Below, in pieces: positions 4,432-64,000 of a stretch of DNA of 64,000 nt. Numbering within the stretch: position 1 is the first letter of the stretch; every line of letters starts with the position of its first letter. The notes below the pieces were generated by a model. That model had not been told where the DNA came from, ran no database searches, and worked only from the letters and a program-made list of their open reading frames with translations. The DNA comes from Struthio camelus (lineage: Eukaryota > Chordata > Aves > Struthioniformes > Struthionidae), in NCBI RefSeq assembly GCF_040807025.1, contig NC_090953.1, positions 23,730,997 through 23,794,996 on the forward strand, written 5' to 3'. A program made the translations under genes and the position numbers.

Positions 4432-4441
4432 CGTTCCTCCT

Positions 4442-12819: not shown

Positions 12820-12884
12820 CGCCCCTCCCGGCTGCGGCGCGGGGCTGGGAACTGTCCGGTCCGGGGGTCCTGAACGGCGCCGCG

Positions 12885-13275
12885 GGCCCCCACGGGGCGC
12901 CGCGAGGATCCACGGGGCGCGGCGCGCACCCGCGGGGCTCGGCGGGGACCGCGCCGGCGAGCGGCGGGGACCTGCTAAGCGCCGCGGGCAGCCACGGGGC
13001 AGGGCGGACACCCACGGGGAGTGGTAAAAATCCACAGGGCACAACGGGGACTGCCTCGGGAAGCAGCGGGGACCCGCCAGGCTCGGCGGGAACCCACTAG
13101 GCGCGGCAGGGATCCACGGGGAGTGGCGGGGACCCACTGAGTCGCGGCGGACACCCACGGGGAGCAGTGGGGACCCACAGGGACGCGGCGGAGACCCACG
13201 GGGTCGCGGCAGGGACCACATCGGAGAGCCGCGGGCACCCGCCGGGGCACGGTGGGGACCGCACCGGGGCACAGT
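12885..13275. repeat. GC-rich minisatellite, ~20-bp unit, ~19 degenerate copies
   Basis: Tandem units of 19-22 bp on the pattern cccacggggnncggcgggga repeat about 19 times by eye, with variable divergence. It lies inside the presumed ISLR2 3'UTR. The unit length is near 21, so it also creates a long proline-rich minus-strand frame, which I regard as a by-product. Confidence 0.8.
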
Positions 13276-16001: not shown

Positions 16002-16008
16002 CTCCCTC

Positions 16009-16638
16009 CTGCCGGGGAAGACAGGGGCCCTGAGGGCGCCCACCCGCCGCTCCGCGGGGCCCCCCCGGAGCGCAGCCCGGCGCGGTGCGGGCGCCGGCGG
16101 GGGCGCGGGTCTGGCCCGCCCGGCGGGACGCGGCTGGGCGGCGGCGGGGACGCGCCCGCCCGCGCCCCCTTTGTCCGCGCCCGGCTCCCCCGGCAGCCTC
16201 TCCTCTCGCCTCGCTTTTCGCCCTCTCCCGCCGCGCTTCTCCACTACCTCTCTTCCCCTCTCTCCTTCTCTTTCATTCTTTCTCCTTCCCTTTCTCTCTC
16301 CCGTTTTCTCTCTCGTTCCCCTCCGGCTCTTTCCCTCCCTTCCACTCTCTTTTTCTTTTCTTGTTTGCGCTCTTTCTCCTCCCCCTCCCTTGATCTCGTT
16401 TTCTTTCTTCTCCTTTTCTTTTCTCCTTTTCCTGTTATTTCTTTTCTCCGTTCTTTCCTTCTCCTTGCATCCTTTTTTTTCTCTCTTCTCCTCCCCACTT
16501 TCCTTCCCCTCTTCTCCTTCTCTCCCTAGTTTTCCCCTTCCCTATAGCTCTTTTTCTCCCTTTCTCCCTCCTCTCACCCCTGCCCAGTGCCCCCCGCCCC
16601 CCGCCTGGCCGCACCCGGGAGGTGACTCCGCGCCTTAC
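16009..16638 (-). other. ISLR2: ISLR2 5'UTR intron (candidate)
   Basis: Acceptor cttccccggcag| at 16009 and donor GCGG|GTAAGG at 16638 on the minus strand. The intron would hold the long pyrimidine tract. A second possible donor, CCG|GTGAGAT, lies at 17304, so alternative first exons are plausible. Confidence 0.45.
16245..16575. repeat. Homopyrimidine/homopurine tract (~330 bp)
   Basis: The + strand is almost entirely C and T, with tctcttt, ccttctc and ctttccc variants. The ISLR2 sense strand is therefore purine-rich. The frames it produces (Ser/Phe/Leu on one strand, Lys/Arg/Glu on the other) are low-complexity artefacts. Confidence 0.85.
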
Positions 16639-38072: not shown

Positions 38073-41000
38073 ATGTTCAGCAGGTCGGGATACCAAGCCC
38101 TTCCCTTGGGAGACTTTGACCGCTTCCAGCAATCCAGCATCGGGCTCTACGGTGCCCAGAAAGGCTTCTTCTCATTTGGATCCAAGCAAGACCCTCTGGG
38201 GCAGACCTCAAACGGAGCAGGTGAGTCCAGACCAGGGGAAGAAGGCTGCCTTCATCCCTGGCACAATTGCCATGTTTTTCTGTGGGGCATTGCACCAGCT
38301 GTGTGCCCCCCACCCTGCCAGCCTCCCCATCATTAGCCCTGGGGCAAGGGGTGCAGGACTTCTGGAGGGCAGAGGCTTCGCTGGGGATTTCTGGGCAGGG
38401 AAGGGGCTAATGGGGCCATCAGAGCTGGTGCAGAGATTCCCTTTCATCCTCCTGCAGATTCCTCCCAGGGCTGGCTGTCCTGGATCTGCCATGGGATTAT
38501 CACGTCCTTCGTCTTCTTGTTGATGGTTGCCACCTTCCCCATCTCGGGCTGGTTTGCCTTGAAGGTAAGCGAGGACAGAAGGTGAGGAACAGGTCAGTAA
38601 AAACCTGTTCTGGCAGAGCTGTTCCTAGCTGCCCCCGCTCAGGACGCAGCCCTGATGCTCCCAAACTGCAGGCTGGGAAGGGCCTAGGCTATGCAGCACA
38701 AAGGGTTCTCTCTGCCCTTGGATGACCCTGTGGATCGGTGATGGAAGAGAGGTCCTCTCCCCTAGCCCACCCTGGGAGCTGGAGGGGCACATGGCTCACA
38801 CAGTGAGGACTGGCAGTGGATGACTGCAGCTCTGTGGTCTAGCATCAAGCTTGATCTGGCTCCCAGGGCAACCGCGTGTGGGCAGGGGCTCCAGAGGAGA
38901 CAGACCTGCTCTTAGGGCTGTCAGGCTGGGTCCCCCAGCACAGGGTTCACCAGACTTCGTGTTGTCCAAACGTGCTGGTGGACACCCTGTCAGGAGAGAT
39001 GGGATGGTTGTAGTGATGTTTCTTGGAGGTTTGTTTGCTCTTCCACAAATGTGCTGGTCTAAGTGTCCCCTTTCCAGATTGTGCCCGCTTATGAGCGAAT
39101 GATCATCTTCCGCTTGGGCCGCATCCGGGCACCGCAGGGGCCAGGCATTGTCCTGCTGCTGCCCTTCATCGATCATTGGCAGCGAGTGGATCTGAGGACG
39201 AGGGCCTTCAACGTGCCACCCTGCAAGGTGAGCTGTCCCATGGCCTCAGGGGACATGTCTCTAAAACACCCCGAGCAGCCTTCTACAGCTGGTTTTTGAA
39301 GAGGTCTGGCCCTTGGTTCCTTCCATGGATGCAACTGTCAATCCTTCTTTCCTGTGACAAGGTGGGAGAGGGCCGTAGTGCTCTGAACCTGGGAGCCCTG
39401 GGCCTACCTGTGGTTGAAAAACTTCTCTTGACTCTGCACGTGTTGTTCAATGGATGTTCCTGGTTGGAGACATCTCGGAAAATATCAGCCCCTACCCTTC
39501 TGCCCCATCTAAGTCTAGATGTCTCTCAGTAAAAACTCCAGGCTGACAACAGGCCTTGCCACTCCAACTAGTCCAAATTTGATCATTTGGGTTAGGTTTA
39601 TTTCTAATTACTCTCTTAATAACGAGATCTAGAGCCAGCTTCCCTTGTGCTCATGTGCAGACATGCTCCCTGTGACCAGAAATGGCTCTAAAGTATGGGT
39701 TGCTGCCCGTGTTGATGCTCAGTGACCAAATGGAACAGGGGTAGCCTACTGGTCCGGCTAGGACTTGGTGGGGGCTGTTCCAGTTTTGCAGAGTTAAGGC
39801 AGCAGTCTCTGCAGCAGGCCTGGTGCAGTGTGGGTCTTGATGCAAGGCATGAATTGGGGCCCCTCTTTTGGCTGAGCACAGATGCCTACTCCTTTCCCTC
39901 TCCCTGTAGCCCTGGGCTATGGAACTCCTCTGGCAAGGCATGGTGGGGTGTCTCGTGCAGTAGTGCATATGAACTCCTCCTCTTGCATGCTCTGATCCCC
40001 AGTGAAATGCTGCGTGGTCTCTTAAACTCTTACTTGCATGCCCTTGGCACCAAGTACAACTGAAACGCTGCAGTTGCAGGGGGAAAGAAGTTAATGTCTT
40101 TGCTCCCAGGTTCTGAAGACAAGGGTTGGGCCACGGGGCAGAAAGGGGGACAGATGCTGGCCCAGGTGCAGCCGGCCTGACTCTCTTCTGCACAGCTGAC
40201 CTCCAAGGATGGCGCTATCATCTCGATGGGTGCTGATGTCCAGTTCCGGGTGTGGGACCCAGTGCTGTCCGTCATGATGGTGAAGGACCTCATCACCACC
40301 ACCCGCATGACAGCACAGAATGCCATGACCAAGACTCTGCTGAAGAAGAGCCTCCGTGAGATCCAGGCCGAGAAGTTGCGGATTGGGGAACAACTCCTGG
40401 TGAGGACTGCCCCAGGCCTATGCAGAGCTCCCACTCTCTCCCCAAACTCTTCAGCTCTGGGTGTGAAAATAACAGTAAGGGAAAATTGCAGCTGTTTCCC
40501 CCATGTGGGAAGAGTCCAGCTGGCAGTGAACCCCAGCAAAAAGAGGGGAAATGGGAAGAAGTAGTGTTTAATGCGGAGCAGGTATCTTCAGCCTCTGGCT
40601 GTGGATCTCTGGAGGTCTGTGGCATATGTCCGAGAGGTCTGGTTACATAGAAAAGCCAATGTGTTATCAGCAGGCTTAAATTCGACCCCTGTCTCCACTG
40701 GGAAATTGCTCTGAGGGGGCTGCAAGCTGAAAAGGGCTTTTGGGGAGAGAGGCAGGGCAGCTGCCGAGGGGAAATAACTACCCTGCCCCCAACAGACCTG
40801 GAGGCAGGCCAAGACCTTGTGGATAAAACTGCTGCAGGTGAGGACTGGGAGAGAGGTGAGGTGAGGGTTCGCAGGGCTGAGGAGAGCAGAGCTCTGGGAC
40901 TGACCATCTGTGGGTGAGGGGCAGGGCTCTATCTCTGGTTGGTGTTCAGCTGAGTTGCTTGGCTAACGGCAGTCCTGCCTTTGGGAAGGAAGAGGAGATG

Positions 41001-45200: not shown

Positions 45201-46800
45201 CCAAGGCATCAGAGCCGTATTTGCTGTTGCCATTAAAGAACGCAGTGCAGTGTACCAAAGCCCTGGGCTGTGCTGGCTCTGTCCTTGCCGTTCAGTCGCT
45301 ATTAACACCTGAGGTCCTGCCACATGTTGGAAGAGTTGTCTGGGTGCAGCACAGACTCTTCTGGAGATCTCTAGCACTTTCTGCCTTCCCCATTGAAAGG
45401 GAGGAGTCATGTGCTGCTACGAAGCGTGGGGCAGAGGAACTGGCAGTCCGAGCAGCTGCCCTGGAGATGGGGGTGCCAATCCTTCCCCATGGATTCCTGC
45501 AACGCCACCAGCTTCAGGCAAGGGCCTTTGGTTCCTTTGCAGGACCCAGCACCAGAGGTATTAAAAGTACTTCTGAGCTCCAGGCAGTGCTAGGCTGCCC
45601 CAAGGATGTTTTTCAAGACCTGCCCAATACAACTGACCCCCTTGTGACAGGCTGCTGCTTCCAGAGAGCCCGACTATCACACCGGACCTGCAAGAGGACA
45701 TGGGCATGCCATGAGGTGCTATCCCAGGCAGAGCAATAGGAGCAAAGGCATGTGTGGAGGGCAAAGTTATTGGAATGAAGGTGCGTGCGAGGGGCAGGGC
45801 TGGGCTTGTTTGCTCAGAGCTTGTGAGTGGCAAACGAGGCTGGGTGGATCCTACCGCCTTACTGGCAGCCAGGGTCCTCTAGGCTGCAGCAGGGCAAGGG
45901 AGGCAGCGTTTGGCCCCGGCAGCAAGAATTGAAATGTCTCATGGCTGCATTCAGGCCAAAATCACCTGCTAAGTCTCCTCTTCAAGGACTCAGTGATGTA
46001 TCACCAAGAGCAAGTTGCCTGGCAAGCAGATTGTGTGGCCTGGTGATCCCTGATGTGCAAAGCAGGACTATGCCAAAGGATTGCTCTGTCCTCTCCTTCC
46101 TTCACCCCTTTTCCCTCTAAGAGTTATGCCAGCCCAAGCATCTGGGCTAGACCCTGGGAATTTGAGAAGCAGATGCTTTCCACTCTCTCAAAAGCCCCAA
46201 GATGAGGGAGCTACCACTGCATCTGAGATGCTGTGGGCTTTGTGCAGAGCCGTCCCCGTCCCCAGGGACAGGCAGCCTGTGCAGGATGGTGCTGCCTGCA
46301 GAGATGGCAGTGCCACCCCAGTCGTGCCTCATCTTCCCCTGGGCTTGACAGTCTGGACAAGGTCTCAAGTGCGGTCCCACTTTCACGGTGGTTCCCTTGC
46401 AGCTGCAGGCAGGCCCAGACCGAGTCGTAATTCCCCAGGGCCAATGCAGTGCTGGAAGGGTGCACAGAGCAGAGAAGATCCGGGAGTTAAAGCCAGACAC
46501 CTGGGACAAATGGGGCAGGAAAATGCTGTTCTGAGGAGGGACAAGCACAGCTGCACACAGGGCAGAGCTCTCTCCTCTGGGATGTGCTGCTGGGAAGAAA
46601 CAGAGTCCTCTTTGGCACTGCCGTGTCCCTGCCCATCCCAGCTCCTGTCCTTCAGCCACCCCAAACTGGGACAGGGAAGCCGGGCTCTGCACTCTCAGCC
46701 CTGCATTTTTCTCCACGATTTGGCTTTTTGAGAAGTGCTGGGGAGGTTTGTGCCCAGACCTAGCTCCAACCACATCCTATCGGGGCCTTTCCTCCCTCTG
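45200..46800. other. Intergenic between STOML1 and PML2
   Basis: Holds no recognised gene. Open frames in both strands are short, without family resemblance or splice support. Confidence 0.45.
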
Positions 46801-46818
46801 GAAAGAGAGGGAGGAAAA

Positions 46819-46830
46819 GAAACAGAAACC
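46819..46830 (+). promoter_or_regulatory. ISRE-like site 1 upstream of PML2
   Basis: GAAACAGAAACC matches the ISRE consensus GAAANNGAAASY. It lies 230 bp before the PML2 start codon. Confidence 0.5.
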
Positions 46831-46975
46831 TCCTTTGGTCTCGGGAGGGCAGAGCTGGCTGGAAGCATCGTTCCAGTCCACGGAGCCGTCGCTGCGTCGG
46901 GGCTGGGAGTGATCACAAGAGGGCTCTGCGCAGCCGGCAGCCCTGCACGAAGGTGGAGTTACTTCCAGGGCAGAA

Positions 46976-46987
46976 GAAAACGAAACT
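46976..46987 (+). promoter_or_regulatory. ISRE-like site 2 upstream of PML2
   Basis: GAAAACGAAACT is a full match to the ISRE consensus, 73 bp before the PML2 ATG. This is roughly where the interferon-responsive site sits in human PML exon 1. A site so placed in both copies suggests retained interferon control. Confidence 0.6.
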
Positions 46988-47059
46988 CCGAGGCAGAAAA
47001 ATCTGAAGGGACGTCTTAGCCAGTGAGCAGAGGGCCACCAGAGCTGCCCACGCCTGACG

Positions 47060-50000
47060 ATGGCTGCAAATGCCCCCCCAAGCCAGCAGAGCTCACAGTT
47101 TGAGACCCAGGTAAGCTCCTGGACAGACACTATCGAGGTGATGGGATTTTGGGGGGGAGAAGGCAGGTGGGTAAGAGATGGTGGGACTTCCACAGTCTGC
47201 AGAGAGCCTTGGGGCAAGAGAGGGTGTCAGCATCGGCCAGGGGGCTGAAGGAGGAGCATGGTGGGGAAAAAGGATGAGAGAAAGGCATGGGCACATTGGG
47301 GAAGGAAGTGACTGTAGGCCTGAGCCACAACATGGCTCCTGCCGCATGGTCCGTGCTGCCTTCCCCCCCAACCTGTGCTGGGCAGTGGAGGCGGTGCATG
47401 GGGCCCTAGGAAGTCTCCATCCTGGCAGAAAGCCCGCAGGACTCAGCCATTTTCTTCTGTGCCCCCAAGTGTCTCTTACTGACCGATGTGATGGGGATAA
47501 AGAGTTTCAGCGCCTGCAGGGCAGCCCGGCACCAGCGCCTGCCCATGCTCTCCCTTGGCCCAGCAGGTGCAAGGCACCGAACCTGTTCCCTGTGGGGAAG
47601 GAAGGCTGGTCTTCAGTCCACCTCCAAGCCCTGTGGGGAGGAGGGCACAGGCTGCCAAAGGAGGAAGTACAGATGCCCCAGAGAGATGGAGGGAAGGAGG
47701 AAGCCAGAGGAAAGGGCCAAGCGAGACAGAGTGAGTGGGGGAGCAGATGGCAGGATGGATGCGCTCTATTCTCAAACCCGTGAGGTTATCGTCCAGAGGG
47801 CATCTCGGACAGTTTCTCTACAGCTGTCTCATCCCCCATCCTCTGCTCTGTTCGTCCTGCAGCCCTGGGAGCAGGAACTGGTGCTGCTGCCCTGCTGCAG
47901 CCCTGTCTTCCCCTGCCCCATGGCCCCAGGGCCAGGGGCAAGGTCTGTCTTCTGTGGGGCTGCTAGGTTGGGACCCATCTCCTCCCTTTGCTAGAGGGAG
48001 AGCAAGCAGTTAGCAGGGCCCCTGTCCAGCCAAGCCTCCTGCGGTGCATGGGCCAGCTCTGGACTGCTTATGGGGCCTGTGCATCCCTGGCTGGAAATGG
48101 TTGCTCACTGGTTGCTCAGCAGGGTCTGAACAGGGCTTGCAGGGGTTACCTCCCTCCGAAATAAGTGTTTCAGGAGCTTTTAAAAACACTTTTTCCTCCC
48201 CGGCACTCACAGTCTGTGGCTCTTTCTCCTTCCCTCTTTCTTTCTTTGCTCCCCAAGCTGCTGGAAGATGAATTCCAGTTTGTTCTCTGTGAGGGCTGCA
48301 AACAGGAATCACCCAACCTGAAGCTCCTCACCTGCCTCCACACCTTGTGCCTCAGCTGCCTCAGTGAGAACAAGCCCATTGGCCAGTGCCCCGTGTGCCA
48401 GACCGCCATCCCGCAGGCCAGCGGCATCCCTGACATGGACAACCTGCTGTTTGCCAGCCTGCAGGCCAGGCTGAACGTTTACAAGAAGATCGTTGGCAGA
48501 GTTGACTTATTCTGTGACAACTGCAAGACAGAAGGCGAGTTCTGGTGCTCCGAGTGCGAGGAATTCCTGTGCACAAAGTGCTTTGAGGCCCACCAGAGAT
48601 ACCTGAAGAAGGAGAGCCACGAAGCCAAGAGGGTGACGGATATCAGAGCAGGGTCAGCTAAAGACTTTCTTGAGGGTACCAGGAAGGCTAGTAACTTATC
48701 CTGCTCCAACATGACTCACAAGAGCCAGACATTAAGGTAAACTTCCTGGCCTGGGATGGTTTCTTTTTGCAGTGCAGCCAAAGGCAGGGGAATATTTGCC
48801 ATGTGTATTGGGGGAAATCTGAAAGACGAAGAAATGGCTTTGAGCTAGCTCCGTGGTAGGTGTGAGCAGGGTGGCTCTGTCCCTCTGCTGCCCTGATTGT
48901 CACCAGCCGGGTCGCCATGTAATGGAGAAGATGGATGGGAAGTAAAGACTAGTGGGCTCCAGAGCAGGAAGGGAGGGTTGGAGGTAGCCATGACCAGACC
49001 AGGGTCTGGGTGTGATGCAGAGCTGGATTCAGGCGCTCTCGAGGGAAAGTCCAAAGGAGATTAGGAAGTGGCTGGAGCAGGCCGTGGAGACCAGCACTGA
49101 CTACTAGCCAGGACAGATCAGACGCAATCTCTGCCTCAGGATGTCCCTAGGCCACCAGTCCTCAGCCCAAGACTAACAGGACATCTGCTGGGGATGGATG
49201 AAAATCTCCCTTCCCCGTTCTTATATTCTTGCCTTATATTCTTGGAGATAAGATACTCTTTGATCTTATATTCTTATACATATACCAAATAAATAACTTT
49301 AGAATTCACCTCTTTACTGCCCCTGCAGTGCATGGATAAACATCTACAGTAACGGTTTCACAGGCAGAGGTGATGGGTATCGCTCCACAGGAAGGCAAAC
49401 CAAATTGGTTTCTAAGCTAGGACTTAAGCAATAATCTCATTAAAAATAGACCTGGACATAAGTCATTGCACAGGCCTAGAACAGAAGCAGGAACAAATTC
49501 CTCTTTAGGAAACCAAATCATATGGGGAAGATTATGCCCAGGCTCTGCCTGAAACAAGGCTTCACTGTCCAGCCCTCCTCCAAGATTCTCATTTTCTGTT
49601 AGAGATATTCCTGTGGCTGCAGGAGAAGAAGGTACCCTACTAGTCAGTGTCAGTGTGCTGCGCTGTAGTAACTGGTCAGGTGAACAGTTTAGCCAATTCA
49701 AAAGAGGAGTAGAAGCCCTGTGGAAGTAGTTCAACTGAAAAAGTGCTTTTTTGCAATTGGGACAGGATAAGAGCAAATATCTGGCCCATATTGGTAATAG
49801 ATTTACTCACATGTAATCATGCTTAAATGAATGAGTTGCAATAAGAGTATGAGAGTGCATGGTCTAAATTACTGCTCTGCCTGTGCTTGGCCTCACAGTA
49901 TCTACTGCAAAAAGTGCTGCAAGCCTGTCTGCTGTATCTGTGCCCTGCTGGACAGCAAGCATGCAGGCCAGCATTGTGATATCAACACTGAGATCCAGCT

Positions 50001-53000
50001 AAGGCAGGAGGAGCTGGGTGCCATGAGCCTGGAGCTGAAGCAGAGGAAAAGCGGCTTTGAAGATGCCTACAAGGCTCTGCAGGACGAGGTGGCCCGCCTG
50101 GAGCGGGTGAGCAGCGAGACTCGGGAGCAGATCCAGCAGCGCGTGGAGCAGCTGGTGCGGCTGATCCGTCAGGAGGAAGAGGAGCTGCTGGGGCTGGTGG
50201 AGACGCGGCGGGAGCAGGGCCGCCAGGAGCTGGCGGGGGAGCTGCGGCGCGTGGAAGGCGTGCTGCGGCGCATGGAGGCCGGCGAGCAGCTGGTGGAGAA
50301 GATGAGCCTGTACGCCACGGAGCAGGAGGTGATGGACATGCAGCCCTTCATCAAGGACTCCCTGGAGGAGCTGCGGAGGCTGCAGCCCACGGCAGCTGGG
50401 GGCCAAGTGCAGGCCGCGGGGGACTTTGCTGAGTGCAGAGGCAGGCTCCAGGCGCTGGTGGAGCGAGTGATGGGGCGGACAGGTAAGGAGATCCTCAACC
50501 AGAGGGGTTGGTAAGGTACTGAGAGCAAAAAGGAAGGTTATAAACCCTGGTTTGTCCGTAATCTCCATGGGTTTCAAGTCTCCTTTCATGTGGCTATTTG
50601 TTGGACCTGTAACTCCTGCCTTTGCTCAGGAGCACAGATCGTCTTTCCTTCCCCCAAGGATTAGGAGGCAGTTGCTGTTTTTAGCCACTTCTAAAACACT
50701 GGTCAACTCTTGCTCTTGTGGAGGACGTTAGTCCTCCAAATACAATTGTAACGGGAGAGAATGTTGTAAATTGCTCAGGCTCAAACTTTGCAGGGGGCTA
50801 AAAAGTAAGAGAGGGAAATGACGTCTGGGATGCGGAGTGCATGGAGAAGGAGTATTGGTTCACAGAGGGATTGGCATTTGGAAAGAGAAAGTGGGTAGAA
50901 AGATTGGATCAACTCCACATCATCTCTGAGAAACGTTCAGTCCGGTGACACATGCAGGTCCCACAGAGGTCACAACTATCTTCCAAGGTTTAGTGTCCTA
51001 CGATCCACTAACCGCTTCTCGCTCCTCAGATCTCCAGCAGGCATTCACAAGAGCTGGCTGAGCACTTAAAAAAAGATTTGCATTTGCTAAACTTGGGCTG
51101 TCCACAATGATGGAGCATCAGGGACAATTCCCATCTTGGTCTGTTGATTACTGCCTTGGGGTCACATATCCAATTGGGAAGGGGAAGCACTTCCAGGGAG
51201 CAATCCCCAAAAGGGCTGGTGAGTTGTCTGTGACTGATGCGGTGTTTGGCCAAGTGTTTCTGAAGCTCTTCAGCAGCAGTGCTGTGGAAGAGATGCTGGT
51301 GGTATGGGAGTGGTGAAGGCTTTGCGTCCTTGATACGTGAAGAGAATCTGGTTACTCGTGTGCTGGAAGAGTAGGCAGCAGTAGAGGGGCTGGCTTAGGC
51401 AGCTTGTGGTAGCATCCTTCCAGCAAATGGGGAAAAAAAGAAACAAGAGGAAGGGACTTTGAGAGGTCGTCTTCTCCATCCCCCTAAGGCTGTCAGGGTC
51501 AGTTCAATTCAGACCTGACTGCTTCCAGAGACCTCCTTGGCCTACTATGGGCTTCCACCACTGAGCTCCCTGGGCTGAGCCTGTGGGTCACAGAAGAGAT
51601 CAGAGGTGATCTCCTGGATGGAGCTTGGGGTTTTCTGGGGACAAGCTGCAACCCACCCCACTTCTTGTGTCTCTGCCACTTAGTAAGCATCATCCCTCCA
51701 TTTTCTCCCTTGACCCCAATGAAATTGCTTAGAACAACTGTCCTCCAAGTCCTGATTGTTCCCTTCTGTTCCCTTCCCCTCCCCTCCCCTGCGACAGGTA
51801 CCTCTGCTCCCCAACTTGGCTCCCCATACGAAGATGAGAGCGCCCCAGTACTCGACCCTGAGCTTCAGTCTCCTCAAGAGCAGGCCCAGCCGCACAGATA
51901 TGTCCCTGCAGGGCTCCATGCCCATGACCACGAGCAGCCCTGTGCACCCATATCAGATCCCTCCAGCAGCAGAGGACATGTGTGTCTAGGACGAGGAGGG
52001 AACGCGTCCCCAGCCCGACCCATCCCTCAGGACCTTGCTAGGCAGAGGAACGAGGAAATGGAGGATGACTCTGGGTCACCTGCCAGTGCCCATGAGGACA
52101 CTGTGCCTATTCCCAGGAACGTCCATGATGCTTTGGTCTCCCTTCAGGAAGATTTTGGTGCCTGGGCCAGGTCAAATGTACAGCAGGCAGATGAGCTCCT
52201 GAAGGCAGGCAATCACCTCCTGCAAGCTCAGCAAAGGGCCAACAGGCACCTGCTGTCCATGGCACAGGGGGTCAAGGCCATGTCCTGCTCCCTAGACACT
52301 ATTGCCTCTGCCATGAAGCCCTTGCTGCAGAGCTTGCTGCAGTCCAAGCGGCAGCCTGCCGCAGCCATGTCCAGCCTGCGAGAGTCCATGACCACAGACG
52401 TGGACTGGCCATCGCTGCCCTCCAATATACTGGAGTTATTCCTTCCTAGCACCTCACAGCACAGTGAGTCGCTGATCCCAACAGCTGCCATGGCCTCTTC
52501 TCCTAGCAGACATCCTCCTTCCTGTCCTCCCAATGCTGCTGACCCCTTGGCCAGCCCAGTGCACTCTGTGTCCCCCAGCACAGCTTCAGCTGAGACCTTG
52601 GAGGGTGAATGCCCCCAGTCAGGGCACTCCACCAGAGGCAAGCGTAGCTCGAAGTCTACCACCAGCCTTCGGAAAAGGAAGAAGTGAAGCTCCCTTTGCT
52701 GCTGTTCCAGGGTGTCCAGATGACCAGAGGTGGTTGCTCATGGGCCTGTATTACATATCTTGAATGAGGGAGGCTGGTCTCGGGAGGCCAAACACAGGAT
52801 TTAACTCCCATCTGCCCTGTTACTGATGTCCATCATGGCCTTAGGCATGTCCCTTCACTTCTCTGCGCTTTGAGCTACCATTCTCCCCAGCTTACTCTGC
52901 TGACCTGAAAGGAGGCTCCATCCACCCCATTTCTATAGGCAAGGGCTCTGATGGGAAGCAGCAGGATCTAGAAGAGAGGTCTCAATGGAGAGCACAGTGG

Positions 53001-56000
53001 GGGATCCTGTCTGTGACCCTGGGAAAGAGACGGGAGTGAATGTCTTGTGCAGTGAGGAGCCTGCCACTGAGTCTGCGGTGCTCTGCAAGGACAGCCAGAC
53101 ACAGACCAGGCCCTCTCACCCCTACGTGGTTTGCAATGGACTGCAGCTGCTTTGAAAACCCGTTAAAGGTCCTGATAGGGACCTGGCGCTCCACCTTACC
53201 TGTGCAAACTTTACTATGCCAATAAAGTCCTCTTGGACTGGAGAGTGAATGTGTCTTTTGCTGTGTCAGGGCCTGGAAAGGGCCTTCCTGGGGTGGGGTG
53301 TCCAGGGAACGTGGTTGGGGTGAGAGATTCCCAAATTGTACTCCGCGCCCCATGAAGGGCTGAAACAGGTATGCAGCAGCAGTGCCAAACTCTGAGCACT
53401 GCTTCTTGCCTGTACACATGGTGCGGTGGCCAGCAGCCCCAGAGCTACCTGTGAGGGAGCCTAGGCAGGGCTCCCTGGAGGCATAAGATGGGTTTGGTAG
53501 TGTGGTACTGTCCCACCTAATGAGTCCTAACTCATGATTACGTGCATGATGCTACTAATTTTGTTTTCCTTGCCAGTATTGTGTGCCTTCCCCAATCAGC
53601 TTATGGGCCTGAGAAGGTCAGGAAGGTGGTTCTGTAAGCTGCAAGCCCAGATGAGAGAGCTTTATGAAAGGAGTCTTTAGTACAAGGATGGGAGAGGGAA
53701 CTGGTAGATCCCAGGATGTGTTCCTGCATGAGTGTGCCACAAGATTCAGTGTGGCAAGCCCATGTGAGCAAACGGCCTGATTGTGGGAGGTTCATGAGGC
53801 AAGTGTGAGAGAAATTAGGAGAGAAATTTGGAGAAAAGAAGATCTAAGCATAATAAAAATGTGGTTCCCGTGGCTCCAGAGGTATTTCTTGAGGATCTGA
53901 CACATTTCTCATTAATGGATCCTTGCCAAGATAGTACTTAGCTGAAAGCAGTGGGATGCAGAGCTGCAAGGAGTAGCAGCTCTCTGATCTAGCCTGGTGA
54001 GCTGCGCACTGAAATATTCACATGGCCGAGTGCCATGCCACATGGGCGCCCTCGCTTCCTCGGAGAGCAGAGGATGAGTGCTGACGGGAAGTGGGCAGGC
54101 CAGCGGCTAGGTCCTAGCGCGATCGCTTGATTTTAGCCTCAGCAGTGTCTGCAAGCGGGGCTTTGGGTTACCTGCTGTGACCACACAGCCCTGCAGCTGG
54201 TGATGTGACATAACCCTGGCACAGGAGCCACATTCACACGGTCTGCGAGTTGGCCATCGCTGCTCTGTGTGTGTGCACGCTGGCGTGCCGGAGCCCCGCT
54301 TCACCCCGTGCCTATCTGTCTGATTCTGCTTGTGTCAGCTTATGCTGCGTAAGGCTGTGCCTCAGTTTCCTGATGTGTGAATACTAGCATCTTCTGTGGA
54401 GCGCTTTTTTGTCAGCTCATTCAAAGCACTGTAGCAAGGGTGGCACTTGGTACTCTCAGATGTCTCTAATGCTGCTCTCCCTCTTCTTGACTCTGTATTG
54501 CTGTTGTTTCAGAAACTGCCTCTGCTCAAGCCACAGAAAACTCCCATCAGGTGAGACTTGGTTTCTACTTGTTTTTCTCTGGGAATTTTGTGTTGCAGGA
54601 TTATCTGGCAAGAATTCAGGGCTAGCTTCCAGCCCTGGCAAGCACGAGTTCCTTTATTTAATGGTGGCGGTGGTGGTGGTGGGGGGGGTGTGTTTGGTTG
54701 CTGCTTTCCAGATTCCTCCTCGTGTGTCTTGTTTTGAAAGGGGTCATCTGAGCTCCAGGTGAGATCCCAGGTTCAGTTGCCTAGATAGTGCACCCCCATC
54801 CCTTGAGCTGGGCTGTCTCTAGGAGTAAGGCTGCAGAACCAGTTCCAGGGCCCATACTGCCATGGCAAACTTTGTCCCTTGAAGGTACCTTTCTGGCTAA
54901 GGTGCAGACAAACCTCACAACATGAGACATGCCACCACATGTACTTTAATGACATCACGGGCACATTGGCATGCAAATTGTTTCCTGCCTCGGCTTTTCA
55001 AACTGCACTGTGCCCTGTGCTGAACAAAAAGCAGGGGCCTTTATACATCTGCAGTCAGGGCTAGTGGGAGAGACACTGCAGCTGGCTCTGATGTGACTGG
55101 TGTCTCCAACCAAATCTTTGCACTCCAGAAGGGCAGAGGACTACTCCAAGCAGAAGTGACCTAGGATCTAAGATGTCCAAGGCAAGCTCCCTTCTCTTTT
55201 CCTATGGTGCCTGAAGGACTTGTGACTAGCATTAGGGCTGCCTGCCTTTGCCCGGGATAAAACTTTCTTCTGAGCCGTGACAGAAGGATGTGTCTGCTCT
55301 CCTCTTGTATCTTCTGGAGGGGCTCAGACATTAGTCAAACATACAACTGGTAATCCAGGAAGATCCAGTCACAGGCTGGAGGAAAGACAAAATGACTGCA
55401 CGTTAGCCAGGCAGGCAGCCTGGGCCTGATGTCTCTGGATGGCAGGAGCAGGGCTGGGGCCCACCAGACTGCCCCTGGGCAGAGCTCATGCAGTTTGTCC
55501 TTAGCCACCCCAGTTGGGGAGCAAGCTTGGACCAGAGGATGGGCCTAACCCTGTCTGCAAGCAATACAAAGAGAGCAAACTGCTTAAATGACAAGATAAA
55601 AGTGATTTATTCTCTGAGCTCAGGGAGGGGAGATTCACAGCAGATTCACACAGAAAGGCACCTTTCTTCTTTGGGGCTGTTTGGCAACATGGAAAGTTCC
55701 TGGCCAGTGTCAGGCAGGAAGGGTGCCTTGCCCAGCATGGCTGGAGTCACCACAGCCTGTGAGAGACAGGGCCAGGTGAGGCTTCATACCGGAAAGAAGG
55801 AAGTGGTGTTTGGTGACCCTAGAGTAGAAGAGACCATGTGGGTAAACAGCACTTGCTTTGGGCAGAGTGCAAACCAGTGTGGGAAACCAGCTGGAGAACT
55901 ACCAAAATACTCTGGGGCACTGACAGCACTAAGTTGTTCTAGGAAAAACAAACTTCGGCTTTGTCCAGCCAGCTCTCCATCTCCAACTCGTGCCTCTCCC

Positions 56001-59000
56001 CTCCCCTCCCTACCATTGCATGCCCTCCATCTCCCCAAAATAGGAATCCTGTGCTCTGTCCCATGTCACCTCTTCCTCAAGCCCCCTCTCAAGCCTACAC
56101 ACATCTCTAAATGCCAGTCTCCCACCCTGGCATCCCCCACTCCTCAATCACACCTCTCTGTTCCTTGCCCTGTGTCCTCTCTTAGTCCCCACCTGGGTCC
56201 CATCCCATTCCCAGATTGGTATATTGGGCATGATGGAGCAGTGCCCAGAAATTGGAGCTGTTTGCTTACCCAAGTAAAATGCCCAAATGCAGCATCCTAC
56301 CTCATTTGGGCTTGTTACCTGACTACGGAGAGACTTGTGGTGGAGACCACCTCAGCCAGGCCAGGGGGTCCCAGTCCCCTCCCACCACTGCTGTAAGCAC
56401 ACTCAAAGCTCATACCTAGGCAGACCATGCAGAGCTGCTCTCACTGGCTCTGCTTTACATGGTTAGGTCATCTCTGCATCCACTCCTCTGAAGAGGAGGA
56501 ATGTTCAAAACGCAGATGTCCTGCCATCGCCAGTGAAGGTGATGAAGGTTGAAGACAACGACATTGAATGGATGAAATTGGAAGTCTTGCAGAAACAAAG
56601 CTCCTTCGATCAGCCTGGAACCAGCTATCCGGTGTCTGCTGTGGCTCATACCACCAAAAAAGATGGCTTATTGGAAGATGTGGAAAATAGCAACAGTGGG
56701 CTGCATGATTCAGGTAAGCAGCCCACTGCTGCTTTGTTTACCTTTGACAATGCTTTCCCGCTCTTCATTTCTAAAGCAATGAAGCCATGGGTAGATTTTT
56801 CAGGGGAAAGCATCAAAGCAGGGCGGAGAGCAGCATCCCCATAGGTAAATTTCACAAGAGGATAGTTATGTCCTAGCCTATCATCTTGAGTGGCAAGATG
56901 TTCAGCAGTGATTGCTAGGGAACCAGGCTTCATTCAAAGATCTCACCCAGCGTATACTGTGTATCTATGACTTGGAGATCAATCCTTTTCCAAGTGGGCA
57001 CCAAGGGCAGGGTCCTCCCCGCTCCCCATCCTCATTGCTGGCCATCCAGAGTCACCTCTCAGCGTGGCTAGTGATGCAGATTGCAGGGGCTGTCAGACCC
57101 TTGCACCCAGCACTAACTGCGAGGGTCAACAGAGCCACAGGTGCATCTGAAATATGACGAGTCTTTCCTACCTTGGCAGATAACGATATTTTCTGCTTGG
57201 ACAGTTTTGAAGAGGACAGCAGCGATCAGGAGTCGTTGGTGAGTATAGCCAGCCACCTTGTGGCTGATGGGGCAGAGGACAGGCAACAAGCTCAGCCTCC
57301 TTCTCAAGCAGAAGAGAAAGGACTTTTGGTGCCTGGCCCTTCAGTGTTCAGTGTTTAAGCTCAGGATTCACCATGGGGACGGGACCACTCGGTGCTTCCA
57401 GACCTCCAGGGCTGTCCCAGAGTCCTCCTCAGAGCCTGGCAAGGAATTTCTGAAAATCCTTCCTGAGTTGCAAAATACCTTTGTAAATCCCCTCCAGTTC
57501 CCTTTGACTTCTGGGGGTATTGGGCCTCCCAGTAGCTTGAGAGTCTTTGCAGATACCATCCTGGTGAAGACAAGATGGTGAGCAGCCAAAATGAAAGCCA
57601 GCATGAGAAGGCAGTCCAAAACATCATCTTGTCTTCGAGGCTGTGAATGGCTGGGTTTTTGCTGTTACTTTTGAGCAGTTCCCACAACAGTCTGCACCAC
57701 TGTGGCTGTTCCCCAGCTGTTCAGAAGAGATTAGAGAAATAAGCAGCTTCCTGGCCTGACTGCTATCTGTCTTGGCTCACAGCTGGAGGAGAGATGCTGT
57801 CTTGCCTGGAGGTCATCCCAGCTTTTCTTTCACTTTTGAGCAGGAAGCCAGTCAGGAATGATCCAAGTGGGCCATCCCAGTAGTGGTCTGCCCATCCCAT
57901 AGTGGTATGTCACTTTGTTTGCAGTGCTGGAGGGCACAAGTTTTTATGACCAACTAGAAGGTCTTATTTTATCTTAAGTCCTCTAGCAGGTAATTCAAAA
58001 GGATTCCTAAACTTTGGTAACCTTCCACATACATGTGGTTGGGTAGGTCTGCTAGCTCCATTTTACCGTGTCAGAGACAGAATTAATGCCGTTTAATAAC
58101 GCAGGCCAGGCTCTGGGAATGAATACACAGCTTGGCTTATGTCTTCACCAACAGTTTCTTCCTCCTTGCCCTGAACAGAGCAGCCTGGTCTATGCTGCCT
58201 ACTGGGAACAGTCTGTGACGCATGCTCTGTGCCAGGCCATACTCAGGCATCATAGGGGGAGGTGCATGGACTGAAACCATACCAGGACCATGCGGACAAG
58301 AGCAGTCCCCAAAGCCAGCCCACATTTCTCAGGCTGGCCTCTATTGTGTCCCTGCAGTGTCCCCACTGCATCCAGTTACATCGATGGCTTCCCAGTGCAC
58401 ATAGTGCTTTTGCTGCCAGAGCATGAGCTGAGCTGTTATTGAGATATAGAGAAGGGCCAATAGAGGGGGGACCATCCTTCTTCTCTAGCCCTTTTCATCT
58501 TCATGAGCCTATCTAAGCCTGCACTTCTGTAGGGCTCTTCTTGGAGTGCCCTGCTAGCCCTCCAGGACGGCCCAACGAGTTCCCAGAGCTACTACTCTGA
58601 CACTTCTTGTAGACTTCCTCAAGAGCAAATTGTTTCCTTTTCCAGGACTCCAATCTGCTAGATGAACCTAACGGCATGCTCGATGAAAGCACCAGTGAAG
58701 ACTGCCTGGACATTGCCGTCAGCAACCAGAACATACTTGACTTGAGACAAGGATCCCTGCTGTTCTTTGATGTCAAGATTTTGAGTAAGATCCTAAGTGC
58801 TGATGCTTCCCATTTACAAAGAGCATCCTGTATTGCAGCAGGCTCAGATCCCCACACCTGGCAATGCCTCTTTTGCGAAGTCCAGACACTTCCACTGCAA
58901 CTTTGGCTATGTAAGGGAGACGTCATTCTCCTGAGCCCCCAAGAGTCCTTGCCTCAGGGTTTCAGGACAGCTGGAGGGCTGGGAGGAGTGTGAAGCCTGT

Positions 59001-60234
59001 AGGGCCATGAGTAGATTTCTGAGAGATCAGTCAGCTAGCTGAGCAGCCCTTGGCTGTTGCATTTTACATGTGACAGTATGGGGCCCCAAGTTCTCTTTCC
59101 CATGGGCCGATCTCTTTTGGTAAAGGTAGATTTTACTTTTCAAGCCCCTCCTTAGCCCACTCTCAGACAGCAGCAAGAGCGCTTGTGTGCCTGGTGGGGG
59201 GAATGATCCCACACTGCAGGAGGTGTTGAGATGTATGGGAAGTGTACTACTGAAGGTTGCTAGGTGATGGAAGCTGAGGGTGTGACTGAGTGTGGGAGGA
59301 TGGACGTAGAAGAAATAATAAATCCATCCCCCCAGCTGCTATTGATGGTGAAAGCCTTTAGAGGCTGAGCAACTCAGTGAATGTTCTATTCTCCTGCTGA
59401 GTAAGAGACTAATTCTGCCTTTCTTCCCTCTCCTCCTCTTTCCCTTCCCCCTCCTCTTCCCCAGAAAATGAGATCATTCAGGTGGCAGTGGTAGACAGAG
59501 AGAAAATTTTCCCGATCCTGATTCAGCCAGTGAAATGTTTGTCCACCTTGATGGCCAAAAATAGTGTCTGCGAAGTTGGCCTGAGGAATCTGCTTTGCCA
59601 CCTCAACACTGTACACAGGCCCATCCTGGGTGGATTTGGTCTCTGGTCGCTCCCTTTCCCCACCCTCTTGAAAGCCCTGTCATTTGTGGACAAGAAAGGG
59701 GAGTTCAGCTCTGCTGTGTATGGTTTCCTAGACATTTTGCCTCTGATTAAAGAGAAGATCCCCGAGAGGGATAATTACAAGTTGAAGACCTTGGCCAACA
59801 CTTATCTCTGGCGACAGCTCAGTGATTGCAGTGCCATGGAGAGTGCGAAGGCTATGAAGGATCTGTACGAGGTCCTGGATATCAACCTGGGGAAGGAACC
59901 CAGGCTGATTCTCAGCCATGCCAGCCTGGAGTGCTTCATCTCCCTCACGCCCTTGTTGACCGAGAAACTTCTCACCAAGCCATCCGCCCAGACGCTGGCC
60001 ACTCACAACATTGGCCTCTCTGAGCTCTGGTCCTGCTACAGGCGTGACCCCAGCAAAGGGCTCCAGAAAGTGTGCCGTCTGGTCAATATTCGTCGGCACA
60101 GCTCCGAAAAGAAGGTTCGAAACCTGAGCAAGATCAAGGTCTACTTCCAGCAACAGCAGCAATCAGCTGAATGCCAGACGACCCCAGTAGGCAGTGATTT
60201 TCCAGAAACCATAAAGAGTGAGAAAGACTGTTGA
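47060..60234 (+). CDS. PML copy 2, second TRIM19-type gene
   Basis: Eight coding exons: 47060-47110, 48258-48736, 49899-50482, 54513-54550, 56467-56713, 57180-57238, 58646-58784 and 59465-60234. They sum to 2367 nt with consistent phases, giving 788 aa. The N terminus is short (MAANAPPSQQSSQFETQ). The RING spans 28-64; B-box 1 starts near 103; B-box 2 starts near 180 and keeps the dicysteine (CCICA); the coiled coil is about 204-370. Exon 6 gives a basic patch PLKRRN and the sumoylation-type VMKVE. Exon 7 gives an acidic SIM-like DIFCLDSFEEDSSD. Exons 8-9 encode the exonuclease-like domain (LLFFDVKIL, then LPLIKEKIPERDNYKLKTLA). Intron phases equal those of PML1, so this is a DNA-level duplication, not a retrocopy. 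No match to PML1 exon 5 was found; exon 4 joins exon 6 in phase. The exon 4 and exon 6 acceptors are the weakest calls. Confidence 0.85.
48737..49898 (+). other. PML2 intron 2
   Basis: AT-rich, with repeated ttatattctt motifs near 49220-49275. The segment 49380-49800 may be an old interspersed repeat, judging by composition. A 119-codon minus-strand frame in it has no recognised relatives. Confidence 0.45.
50002..50484 (+). repeat. Near-identical coiled-coil tract shared with PML1 (inverted copy at 33459-33941)
   Basis: Base-by-base comparison shows one mismatch (50459, T versus C, changing Val to Ala) in 483 bp. The 103 bp of the same exon before the tract differ at about 35 positions, and the introns beyond do not align. 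The two tracts are inverted relative to each other and flank STOML1. Confidence 0.9.
51798..52687 (+). CDS. Alternative terminal coding exon of PML2
   Basis: A strong acceptor (cccctcccctgcgacag|) begins an open frame in the phase needed by exon 3, which ends one base into a codon. Joining exons 1-3 (1114 nt) to this exon (890 nt) gives 2004 nt, or 667 aa including about 296 new residues. These comprise a Pro/Ser/Glu-rich stretch, a probable helix or coiled coil (containing ADELLKAGNHLLQAQQRANR) and a basic tail RGKRSSKSTTSLRKRKK before the stop, likely a nuclear localisation signal. The helical segment vaguely recalls the C-terminal helices of transposon-derived Myb/SANT proteins, but I cannot assign it. 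PML1 has no equivalent; its matching intron is only 540 bp. Confidence 0.6.
52835..52925 (+). repeat. MIR-like SINE in the 3'UTR of the alternative PML2 exon
   Basis: The phrase ggccttaggcatgtcccttc followed by acttctctgcgctttgag corresponds to the MIR core around ccttgggcaagtcac. It is degraded but recognisable. Confidence 0.55.
53221..53226 (+). terminator. Poly(A) signal of the alternative PML2 isoform
   Basis: AATAAA (ccaataaagtcc) lies 534 bp after the stop of the alternative terminal exon and is followed by a GT-rich stretch (gagtgaatgtgtcttttgct). It supports real use of this exon as a 3' end. Confidence 0.65.
53240..54512 (+). other. PML2 intron, right of the alternative exon
   Basis: Contains a MIR-type SINE at about 54340-54440 and otherwise nothing recognised. 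Confidence 0.5.
54340..54440 (+). repeat. MIR-type SINE
   Basis: Shows ctgtgcctcagtttcctgat followed by gtggagcgc and cattcaaagcactgta, in the order expected for a MIR relative. Confidence 0.7.
54551..56466 (+). other. PML2 intron where exon 5 would be expected
   Basis: A donor-like ggccag|gtgagg at 55775 follows a phase-0 open stretch. However, the peptide does not resemble PML1 exon 5 (which reads VPTFRISLEETQ) or the human exon. I therefore do not call an exon. The region also has a Pro/Ser-rich open frame to 56396 without family resemblance. Confidence 0.4.
57239..57358 (+). other. Possible intron-retention tail after PML2 exon 7
   Basis: If the donor at 57239 is not used, the frame continues 39 codons (beginning VSIASHLVADGAEDRQQ) to a stop at 57358. 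Human PML makes short isoforms by comparable exon-7 read-through and alternative ends. Use here is inferred. Confidence 0.3.
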
Positions 60235-60714
60235 AAGATGTCTGTGCCTTACCAGTACAAGACCCTGTCTCTCACCCATGGAGAGTAACTCCTGGGGCAA
60301 ATTACCAGCTCATGTCACTAGTTTTGCATTCAAAATTTTCTGCCTGCTCCTGCCTGGGGTGATGGGTCTGGGTTTTGATATGTGACAGTCTCCTGCCGTC
60401 CTCCCTCATCTAAACACTTGTGTTAAGGTGAAGAGCTGGGGACACTAGGCTGGCTGGGACATGTCCTCTGGCCTTGCTCTGATCTTGACACCTTGTAGCC
60501 TCACTGTGTATTAATTTCCCCTCTGGATGAATCAAACCAACTATAGGAAGAAATCTTTCCATGATTTCTGGGAAAGGAAGCTACTGCTTACAGTCCATCC
60601 TGCCTTTGCTGGTTTGGGGCTTGGGGGGAGAAGGGGGAGAGGGAAAGGGGCAATGTGGTTGGAAGCCAAATGGAAAAACAGCGGGTACTGAAATTAATTT
60701 AGAAGGGCCAAGAG

Positions 60715-60720
60715 AATAAA
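60715..60720 (+). terminator. Poly(A) signal of PML2
   Basis: AATAAA (agagaataaaggatg) lies 481 bp after the PML2 stop. It is the first canonical signal on this strand. Confidence 0.7.
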
Positions 60721-60729
60721 GGATGCCTG

Positions 60730-63700
60730 TAAATGCTGGGAAGGGGTCTAGATCATGGAGAGGAGAAGGAGGAATGCAGAAAAAGGGGATAGGAGGCCTT
60801 TTTGTGGCATGATCCACACCCTATTTTACTCCCAAGCTTGGTAAGAGGTGTCCCCACCTTGCACATCCTGCCCTCCCTTAGCCCCCTTTGCCCAGCTTGG
60901 GGGTGTCTCTGCCTCTGAGGGGTACCTGAACTCCTTGTCCGTCTTCTCGTGAGCAGGACAGCGAGGACAGAGGGCTGTCCCTTGTGTTCCTGTTGTCAGA
61001 GCTGCTCTGTCACTCCAAGTAGCTGAGCCTTCCTGTGAGCCAGTATTTGCAATGTCATTGTGGGAGGAACCAAAAACAGTCATATGCAGTGCATGTCCTT
61101 TGGCCACCAGGATTCAGCGTCTGGCTGGCAGGGATTCAACCTCTCTGCTCATGTGCTCTCTGCTCATGTGCTCTGAAAGGGGGGCAGTGTGAACACAGGG
61201 AAGAAGGGCTTGTGTTACTCATTCCTTTGTGAGGGACAACAGACCCTGGAGAGTGGGGGAGCTGGGCTGAAGAAAGCGACAAAAAAAACCCAAAAAACCA
61301 AAAAGCCCCTTTGGGTCCATCTACTCTGAGATATGAATCTCCTAAGTGAGTGCACAGTGATACTGTTTTCCTACCTTCTCCCCTGCTTTCCAAGCTCAAA
61401 GACAGACAGGGAATTGCTTGGTCAGGGAGGGAATGTCATTGCTCTTTCTGTAGAGGCTGCTGTGCCTGCTTACAGATGCAGAAGAAATAAATCATTTACT
61501 TAATTTGATGTGTATTGCTAATAATTTGCTCTTGCTCTCCATTCCCATAATGCCCCCTGTGGAATATAAAAAGGGCCAGGGCAAAGAGTCTAGAGCAGCC
61601 TAGAGATCCAGCTACCCTACACCCTGGACACTGCCTGTAAAGGGAGATTAGTAGGGTGTTGGGTGCTGGAAGAAAGTGTATTCACCCCCAGCTGGCTTCT
61701 CTGCTCGCCCTCAGGATGCTCTCGCAGCCTAGCAGCCCATTAAGCTCTCAGCACAGCTCAGATGAACACAGAGAAGCAGAAGAAAATCCATTTGGTTTCG
61801 GGGAGGGGAGGAATCTCTCTTCTTCCAGCCTTGTGGTAGCTAGAGATGGTCAGGGTGAGCCTGCCCCTCCCTGCATCGCTGCGAGTTCAGACAGGGAACC
61901 TGGAGATGAGGAGCAGGTGAAGCTGGGGGTGGCCAGAGCGGGCCTGAATCTCCATTCTGCAAGACAAGCCCATCCCTAGTGACCTCCAGGAGACCACTAG
62001 GCTGCCAGCATTTCCTGGATAACCTGTTTGAGTTAGCACATACGTGAGGCATCTGGATATCCTCCTATGCCAACGTAAGAGTTGGCTTGAGGCCAGGGGA
62101 GAAAGAGCACCAAGAGGTCCTGCTTGCTAAGGGAGTAGCCGAGAAAGCCCAGCATTGTGCTCCCTGCGGGAACAGCATGCATTATTTCCGTTTGTGTGGT
62201 GTGTAGCTGTCCTGCCTGCTGGCAGATACCCAGTTTGGATCACACCAAAATAATCTGATTTAGCCACGACAAACAGCTATTGTCATGAACTTGTGGGTGT
62301 CTCGTCTGGTCCCCATCGGAGCCAGAACCAGCGCCTGACATCGCGGAGAGGCAGGAGAGGGCACAGCTCACAAGTGAGGGCAGGAGGGAACTTTGGGGGA
62401 AGCCTCACAGCAAGGAGACGTGGGGGCAGGAGTCCAGGGTCCACGGCTGTCCCCTGACACAGATCAAGGTTTGCTGCAAATCCTGCAAAGACTTCAAGTC
62501 AAAGTGAGCTGCATGTGTGAGGAAAGCAATGAACACGCCAACCTTTACCCAGAGGCAGGAGCAGAACACGTTCTCTCTGCTCTATCCCTCAAGACCCATG
62601 CAAGGAGTGTTGTTTAAAGCCATGGTCATCCCTGAATGTCACTTAAACCCCACAGGATGGTTTTCCAGCTGTTTTTTTCCTTCCAACCAGGCACAATGCA
62701 ACTTGCAGGGTGATTCGTAGCATGCCGTGGCAGTGGGTCGCTTTTCCCGGCCCCCACTCCTTCTCAGGAATACGGAGGGGACCGGTTGATGTCAAATTGT
62801 CCTGTGCTACCCAAAAAGGTAGGGATTGCCCAGACACCTCAGAGACCATTTTGACCCTCGGTATGTCTGGCCTGGCTGGCAGGGGTCCTCGGAGAGACAG
62901 GACCTGGAGGCCTCTAGTGCTCCTACCACCCCTGTGACGTGACCAGAGCACTGACTCCCAGGCTGAGGCATGCGTCACTCTGCTTTTGTTTGCTCTGTGC
63001 ATTATTTCTGGTAACAATCGTTTCCAACACCAGGCATCCTCCTCCAGTCCTGCCCTGGAAGCTGCTGATTCACGTCTGTTCAGGAATGGTTAAACGGCTG
63101 CTTGTGCAGAAGCGTTTTCCTGCCTCTCACTAAAAACACATGGACACGTCGGGAAGCATGTAAGAAACAGCCAGTGCGGACGCCACCGTGTGGAGTCTTC
63201 TCTTGCAAGAGCAGAAACGCGGTCTGGTGTCGCCGACAGTGTACAGCTCCTCTGTGGTCTCCCCTGGGCCAAACAGGTCCTGCTTGTGCCTGGTGGTGTC
63301 TGCACAGGCAACAGGGTATCAAGCCCAGGGCAACTTCAGGAGCCTCCTTACCATACTCTCCCTTCACAGATTGATGGCAACATTGCTAAATAATCGTATA
63401 TGTATCTGAGCTTGGCGGGACTGGATCAGGCCCTGGGTGAGGCACCCAGAATCCAAGGGGAGCCAATGCCAGGGTACGGAGAGTGGTAGTTAGCAGAAAT
63501 GGCAGTGTGTTAGGTCTGGTTCGTTAGGGTTCACCCAATAGTCGGGGATCAGCATTTGTCCTGGGAGAGGTGCAGATTTCAAAGGCTGAAATTCTGCTTC
63601 CCCATGACTCCAGGAGTCCCCTTCTGAGGAGGGAATATTTTTCAGCAGAGCACTTTTCCCCTGGGAAGCGTGGACCCTACAGCTACAAAGTTTGACAGTG

Positions 63701-64000
63701 ATCTCTCCAGTCCATATAGTCTTTTTGGCAGAAGCAAACCCAAGCGCTTACTTTCTTATTTCCTCCCTTCCAGGTTCCTCCAGACAACCTGAATTCGTAC
63801 TGTGTCAGTTCCCAGGGCTGCCCCAGGACTCCCTAAGCAAGCTTTTCTGAATATTTCCACCTGCATGAAATACAGATTTTCTTTTCCCTTTTACTCTTCC
63901 ATCTGATTCAAGTTAAAATTTCCTCTTCTTCCTCCCTGCCAAAAATCAACATCTTTCAGTGGAAGGAAGCACAAGTTCCTTGCCAACTCTCTGAAGTCAC
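60730..64000. other. Region right of PML2, no recognised gene
   Basis: By synteny with human, the 3' end of LOXL1 on the minus strand could lie beyond STOML1. I found no lysyl oxidase signature in any frame here. A TATA-like GAATATAAAAAGGG lies at 61563-61576 with a 107-codon frame after it. No transposon was named. Confidence 0.45.
61565..61573 (+). promoter_or_regulatory. TATA-box-like element
   Basis: TATAAAAAG in a good context, followed about 90 bp later by an open frame of 107 codons (61656-61979) without recognised relatives. It might be a small promoter or chance. Confidence 0.2.

Follow-up and report, generated by a model that had tools for sequence, protein, structure and literature searches.

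Two near-identical tracts, RING and coiled coil, in an old inverted pair of PML genes of Struthio camelus: very probable recent gene conversion restricted to domains

The window analysed here is a stretch of 64,000 nucleotides from Struthio camelus (NCBI RefSeq assembly GCF_040807025.1, contig NC_090953.1, positions 23,730,997 to 23,794,996 of the forward strand), lying within a 26.9 Mb contig (genome size, 1.45 Gb). The gene order in this 64-kb window is two LRR/Ig genes (minus strand), a first PML gene (PML1, minus strand), a stomatin-like gene (plus strand) and a second PML gene (PML2, plus strand). PML1 and PML2 are an old inverted duplicate pair located on either side of the stomatin-like gene. 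In both genes, exons 2 and 3 encode the architecture RING, B-box 1, B-box 2 and PML-type coiled coil. The human PML chain 8ytc matches both of them from the RING to the early coiled coil (query residues 1-216, E-value 1.9e-65, and 3-213, E-value 7.3e-64), and the Pfam family PML_CC scores over its cut-off in PML1 as well as in PML2. The parts of the two genes are as follows:

34606-35093, minus strand: PML1 exon 2 (first base uncertain), from the open frame
33461-34044, minus strand: PML1 exon 3, from splice sites and the open frame
25705-26289, minus strand: PML1 last-exon-like coding stretch, from a tblastx match to PML2
48258-48736, plus strand: PML2 exon 2 (first base uncertain), from the open frame, donor GT and in-frame join to exon 3
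49899-50482, plus strand: PML2 exon 3, from the AG acceptor, GT donor and open frame
59443-60027, plus strand: PML2 last-exon-like coding stretch with a PML-I type C-terminal part, from tblastx and Pfam PML_C; old divergence

Blastn comparison of window positions 1-46000 with 46001-64000 returned three matches only, corresponding to exons 2 and 3 and to 190 bp of the last exon (65.8% identity). Base-by-base alignment of exons 2 and 3 divided each of them into a near-identical tract and a strongly diverged remainder:

48270-48476, plus strand: tract 1 in PML2, RING and following helix, exon 2; 2 mismatches in 207 bp
34875-35081, minus strand: tract 1 partner in PML1, the probable donor; base-by-base alignment
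48477-48736, plus strand: PML2 B-box 1 and linker, apparently not recently converted; amino acid identity to PML1 0.535
34606-34874, minus strand: PML1 B-box 1 and linker, apparently not recently converted; same comparison
49899-50001, plus strand: PML2 B-box 2, 5' part of exon 3, apparently not recently converted; 35 differences in 103 bp
33942-34044, minus strand: PML1 B-box 2, 5' part of exon 3, apparently not recently converted; same comparison
50002-50484, plus strand: tract 2 in PML2, coiled-coil part of exon 3 (PML_CC) plus the donor GT; 1 mismatch in 483 bp
33459-33941, minus strand: tract 2 partner in PML1, the probable donor; alignment and third-position composition (see below)

The single mismatch between tract 2 and the reverse complement of its PML1 partner is a T/C difference with a Val/Ala change. 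The tract starts where the alignment reaches human R236, 12 bp ahead of the PML_CC profile, and ends with the GT of the donor. The first base after this GT differs between the genes, and the alignment is gone a few bases further on. The two copies of the tract lie about 16.06 kb apart in inverted orientation. An earlier note on this DNA, made from the letters alone, had described just such a coiled-coil tract, with one mismatch, about 35 mismatches in the 103 bp of exon just upstream (exactly 35 were counted), loss of identity just past the exon-3 donor, introns that do not align and inverted copies about 16 kb apart. All of these details were confirmed, the blastn comparison giving no intron match between the genes. 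What the note had missed is that the pattern really consists of two tracts, the other being the RING tract of exon 2. Tract 1 corresponds to human PML residues 51-117 (numbering from the human alignment), and its start was set at 48270, as extension to 48268 (209 bp) gives a third mismatch.

Synonymous divergence (dS) was estimated from a codon alignment of exons 2 and 3. The RING tract (69 codons) contains one synonymous difference in 45.5 sites, corresponding to a dS of 0.022, whereas dS reaches about 2.5 in B-box 1 and the linker (86 codons), and the synonymous sites of B-box 2 (35 codons) are saturated. In the coiled-coil tract (160 codons), no synonymous difference was found in 117.7 sites, in agreement with the identity of synonymous sites reported in the earlier note. 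Region by region over exons 2 and 3, synonymous divergence is thus near zero in the RING and coiled coil and high in the B-boxes. Where both genes specify the same amino acid by a degenerate codon, 1 of 220 codons differs within the tracts as compared with 30 of 70 outside them (Fisher p 2.5e-20). Over the 1,062 aligned coding sites of these exons, the genes are identical along stretches of 457 and 143 sites. Shuffling (20,000 replicates) yielded runs of up to 95 sites and never one of 143, indicating that the identical stretches are not due to chance.

Judging from these comparisons, it is very likely that the near-identity of the RING and coiled-coil tracts results from recent, domain-restricted interlocus gene conversion within an old diverged pair, most likely in the direction from PML1 to PML2. 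Recent gene conversion, which the earlier note had proposed for the coiled coil, is the sole explanation found that fits two exon pieces with near-zero dS, coding flanks with dS from about 2.5 to saturation, and unalignable introns. Inverted paralogues on the same chromosome can exchange sequence by conversion, and similar islands keep recombining while diverged parts cannot. According to the proposed mechanism, the RING and helix of exon 2 and the coiled coil of exon 3 in PML2 would have been overwritten, most likely from PML1, while the B-boxes, introns and C-terminal exon would have escaped recent conversion and would show the true age of the pair. Between the tracts lie B-box 1, intron 2 and B-box 2, all of them unconverted; these segments rule out one long conversion and imply a minimum of two exchange patches.

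Purifying selection or an overlapping functional element could, in principle, have held both domains identical since the old duplication, as both serve assembly in human PML, and both genes conserve the zinc ligands of the RING along with several interface residues. However, the synonymous sites are identical as well (1/220 versus 30/70), and comparison with human PML (8ytc) does not single out the tracts as the better conserved parts. Identity to the human chain is 33/67 (0.49) for the RING in each gene, 43/83 and 42/82 for B-box 1 and the linker in the two genes, and 24/35 and 22/35 (0.69 and 0.63) for B-box 2, which nevertheless differs between the paralogues. For the coiled coil, the comparison is limited to the first 19 aligned residues, 10 of which are identical, as most of the domain lies past the end of 8ytc. 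Since the RING, near-identical between the paralogues, is not better kept relative to human than the B-boxes, constraint alone is an extremely improbable explanation, and the synonymous sites together with the human comparison support the view of the earlier note that purifying selection by itself is insufficient. Duplication of the tract by an assembly or polishing artefact has to be considered too, given that consensus polishing is generally known to be able to erase real differences in near-identical stretches. The tracts are, however, two separate in-frame pieces within a single 26.9 Mb contig, each with distinct flanks, splice sites and introns; three differences persist, and polishing would hardly overwrite a sequence in which a third of the sites differ. 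In genome-wide searches, among the best-scoring candidates, the coiled-coil DNA, the RING DNA (query 48268-48476) and the PML_CC family each matched two places only, namely both PML genes, and the PML1 exon 2 protein, covering the RING and B-box 1, retrieved the same two genes (E-values up to 1e-5). No further copies of either tract were found elsewhere in the genome among these candidates, and an artefact is quite improbable.

The tracts might instead mark crossovers: an exchange between them, given their inverted orientation, would turn round the segment carrying the stomatin-like gene, with conversion at the exchange point. The inverted geometry with a spacer of about 16 kb permits such a flip, but no odd number of flips is visible, the layout matching the human one, where PML stands head to head with the stomatin-like gene and has the ISLR2-like gene downstream, as does PML1 here; this origin of the tracts is highly improbable. 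Finally, a recent duplication followed by fast divergence of the B-boxes, introns and 3' exons would account for the near-identity of the tracts, but it is hardly credible in view of the introns without any match between the genes, the saturated synonymous sites of B-box 2, and a duplication that is reported for birds and reptiles (PMC10445537). In the form of a recent whole-gene duplication, it is ruled out by the non-aligning introns.

The direction of the proposed conversion was approached through the G+C content of third codon positions (GC3). In PML2, GC3 is 0.873 in the tracts versus 0.669 in the B-box part (p 9e-6), whereas the corresponding values for PML1 are 0.865 and 0.847 (p 0.64). 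After stratification by amino acid, the difference persists in PML2 (p 3.6e-5; RING alone, 0.026; coiled coil alone, 1.8e-5) but not in PML1 (p 0.82). The tract composition thus resembles that of PML1, which suggests that PML1 is the likely donor. The pooled dS of the tracts is 0.0061 (0.0002-0.034). At substitution rates of 1-3e-9 per site per year, the conversion would have an age of about 1-3 million years, and of about 17 million years at most. The mismatch rates of the two tracts show no significant difference (p 0.22 for a RING tract of 209 bp), and may thus be of similar age.

Two of the four tract ends are found at or near exon ends, where homology stops: one at the exon 3 donor and the other 12 bp downstream of the presumed first base of exon 2. 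The remaining ends are internal to exons and adjoin domain borders, at human residue 117 and at R236; the B-box 1 crystal construct comprises human residues 120-167, tract 1 ending just before it (PMC6706441). Such positions fit either tolerance, with conversion into the B-boxes being removed, or a benefit of conversion in the tracts.

In human PML, the RING tetramer requires F52/F54 and L73, and a helix with N106 and L112 stabilises it (PMC5876331), whereas the coiled coil with L240, L247 and I279 weighs more in self-interaction than the RING/B-box interface (PMC11589706). F52, F54, L73, N106, L112, L240 and L247 are all conserved in both genes, and all seven are found inside the tracts; this check stops before I279, the later residues being past 8ytc. 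Human B-box 1 needs I122/V123, W157 and F158, and the mutants W157A/K/E, F158A/K/E and V123P abolish nuclear bodies, with arsenic rescuing F158E and W157E/F158E (PMC6706441). PML1 retains I122, W157 and F158, and has V123 replaced by S and F138 by V. PML2 retains I122, V123 and F138, and has W157 replaced by R, F158 by Y and R131 by N. Neither gene keeps all four of the B-box 1 oligomer residues I122, V123, W157 and F158, and the substitutions observed here differ from the human mutants given in the available text of PMC6706441. From these residues, we infer that the genes have the interfaces of the RING and coiled coil in common and have diverged in B-box 1, although the pattern is not perfectly complementary.

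The maintenance of compatible coiled coils for hetero-oligomers, put forward in the earlier note, is a plausible reason for the conversion. A tentative extension, somewhat less likely to hold than to fail, is that conversion was tolerated or favoured in the tracts since both of them hold known nuclear-body assembly interfaces, so that the two proteins could still co-assemble while B-box 1 diverged. A more far-reaching scenario, which we consider rather doubtful, is that repeated conversion since the diapsid duplication has kept the RING and coiled coil common while the B-boxes parted, giving mixed PML bodies from two subunits with different B-box 1 interfaces (W157/F158 in PML1 and I122/V123 in PML2). 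PML nuclear-body formation in birds is stated to be unknown (PMC10445537). The locus can be viewed as a natural domain swap, with equal RING and coiled coil and different B-boxes; it predicts that the PML1 and PML2 proteins are able to co-assemble, and singles out B-box 1 as a variable interface.

Several points weigh against parts of this interpretation. If the non-tract set is extended by the last exon, the tracts of PML1 also turn out to be GC-richer (0.865 versus 0.774, p 0.008), as do those of PML2 (0.873 versus 0.674, p 6e-8), which makes the case for the PML1-to-PML2 direction weaker; GC-biased repair, raising GC in both copies, could be an alternative. As to function, the human RING contacts K65, C66 and W95 are P, N and I, respectively, in both genes, so the human interface roles may not carry over to them. 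In addition, over-polishing may hide a few real differences between the tracts.

Two PML genes in opposite orientation (TRIM19.1 and TRIM19.2) have been described on duck chromosome 11, the pair being present in birds and reptiles and the duplication being placed in the diapsid ancestor (PMC10445537). The pair studied here is similar in that it is an opposite-orientation PML pair on one chromosome. The duck and chicken PML copies stand far from their counterparts in the published tree, for which the authors propose divergence or misassembly, and the word "conversion" occurs 0 times in the portion of that article examined (PMC10445537). Conversion may be another cause of these odd tree positions, though this is a guess, and it could distort avian PML trees built from whole proteins. 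No report of PML gene conversion was found in the literature searched, which covered few subscription journals. The PML duplication is already published; the probable PML conversion adds an example to a process known from other genes and is unusual in its two islands.

Among known systems, gene conversion between the antiviral paralogues MxA and MxB of mammals shows several similarities (PMC4687636). In squirrel and mouse, the genes form an inverted pair in the order Mx1 (minus), Fam3B (minus) and Mx2 (plus), and in other eutherians, conversion is mostly confined to exons for parts of particular domains; the authors put forward "tolerated" and "favoured" models (PMC4687636). Mx conversion was shown by trees over many species, whereas the PML case concerns one species, and in the PML pair, unlike Mx, strongly diverged domains separate two converted modules (PMC4687636). 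IFIT1 and IFIT1B resemble the PML pair in that one part of the gene is homogenised (97% in cat) and the remainder is at 63%, with a breakpoint near a subdomain border, a signal at synonymous sites and functions that remain distinct; however, their 5' two-thirds were converted in one piece, whereas the PML pair has two islands (PMC4887208). The TLR1 family of birds and mammals likewise comprises immune paralogues with multiple reported conversion events, but these are receptors, whereas PML is a nuclear-body scaffold (PMC3125219).

The last-exon-like stretches of PML1 and PML2 share 35.9% amino acid identity (tblastx). In PML2, the longer open reading frame (ORF) at 59413-60234 matches Pfam PML_C with 97 bits (cut-off 27.1), while the PML1 ORF at 25693-26376 (minus strand) gives a weak score of 20.3 bits, under the cut-off, and the extreme C-terminus of PML1 may accordingly be lost or diverged. 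Downstream of PML2 exon 3, a 399-codon open frame without a Pfam match is located at 51488-52687 (plus strand); it could represent an additional exon or derive from a transposon. The other genes of the window are represented by the following features:

40181-40399, plus strand: exon of the stomatin-like gene, from weak matches to stomatin chains (E-values 1.8e-4 to 9.5e-3)
3163-4755, minus strand: first LRR/Ig gene, from Pfam LRR and Ig
13905-16541, minus strand: second LRR/Ig gene, from Pfam LRR and Ig

The stomatin-like gene, which gave no Pfam match, is presumably STOML1, and the LRR/Ig genes are taken to be ISLR and ISLR2, in each case by synteny. The two LRR/Ig genes are an older tandem pair; positions 3425-4317 and 15013-15893 of these adjacent genes align at about 74-77% DNA identity. 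Between them, less than 1 kb from the ISLR2-like frame, lies a GC-rich tandem array (12876-13270) with a period of about 20 or 41 bp and about 19 copies of the 20-bp unit. In the 10 kb directly downstream of the window, an ORF with a ZP-N domain of the egg-coat protein type is found on the plus strand (L005:1875-2429).
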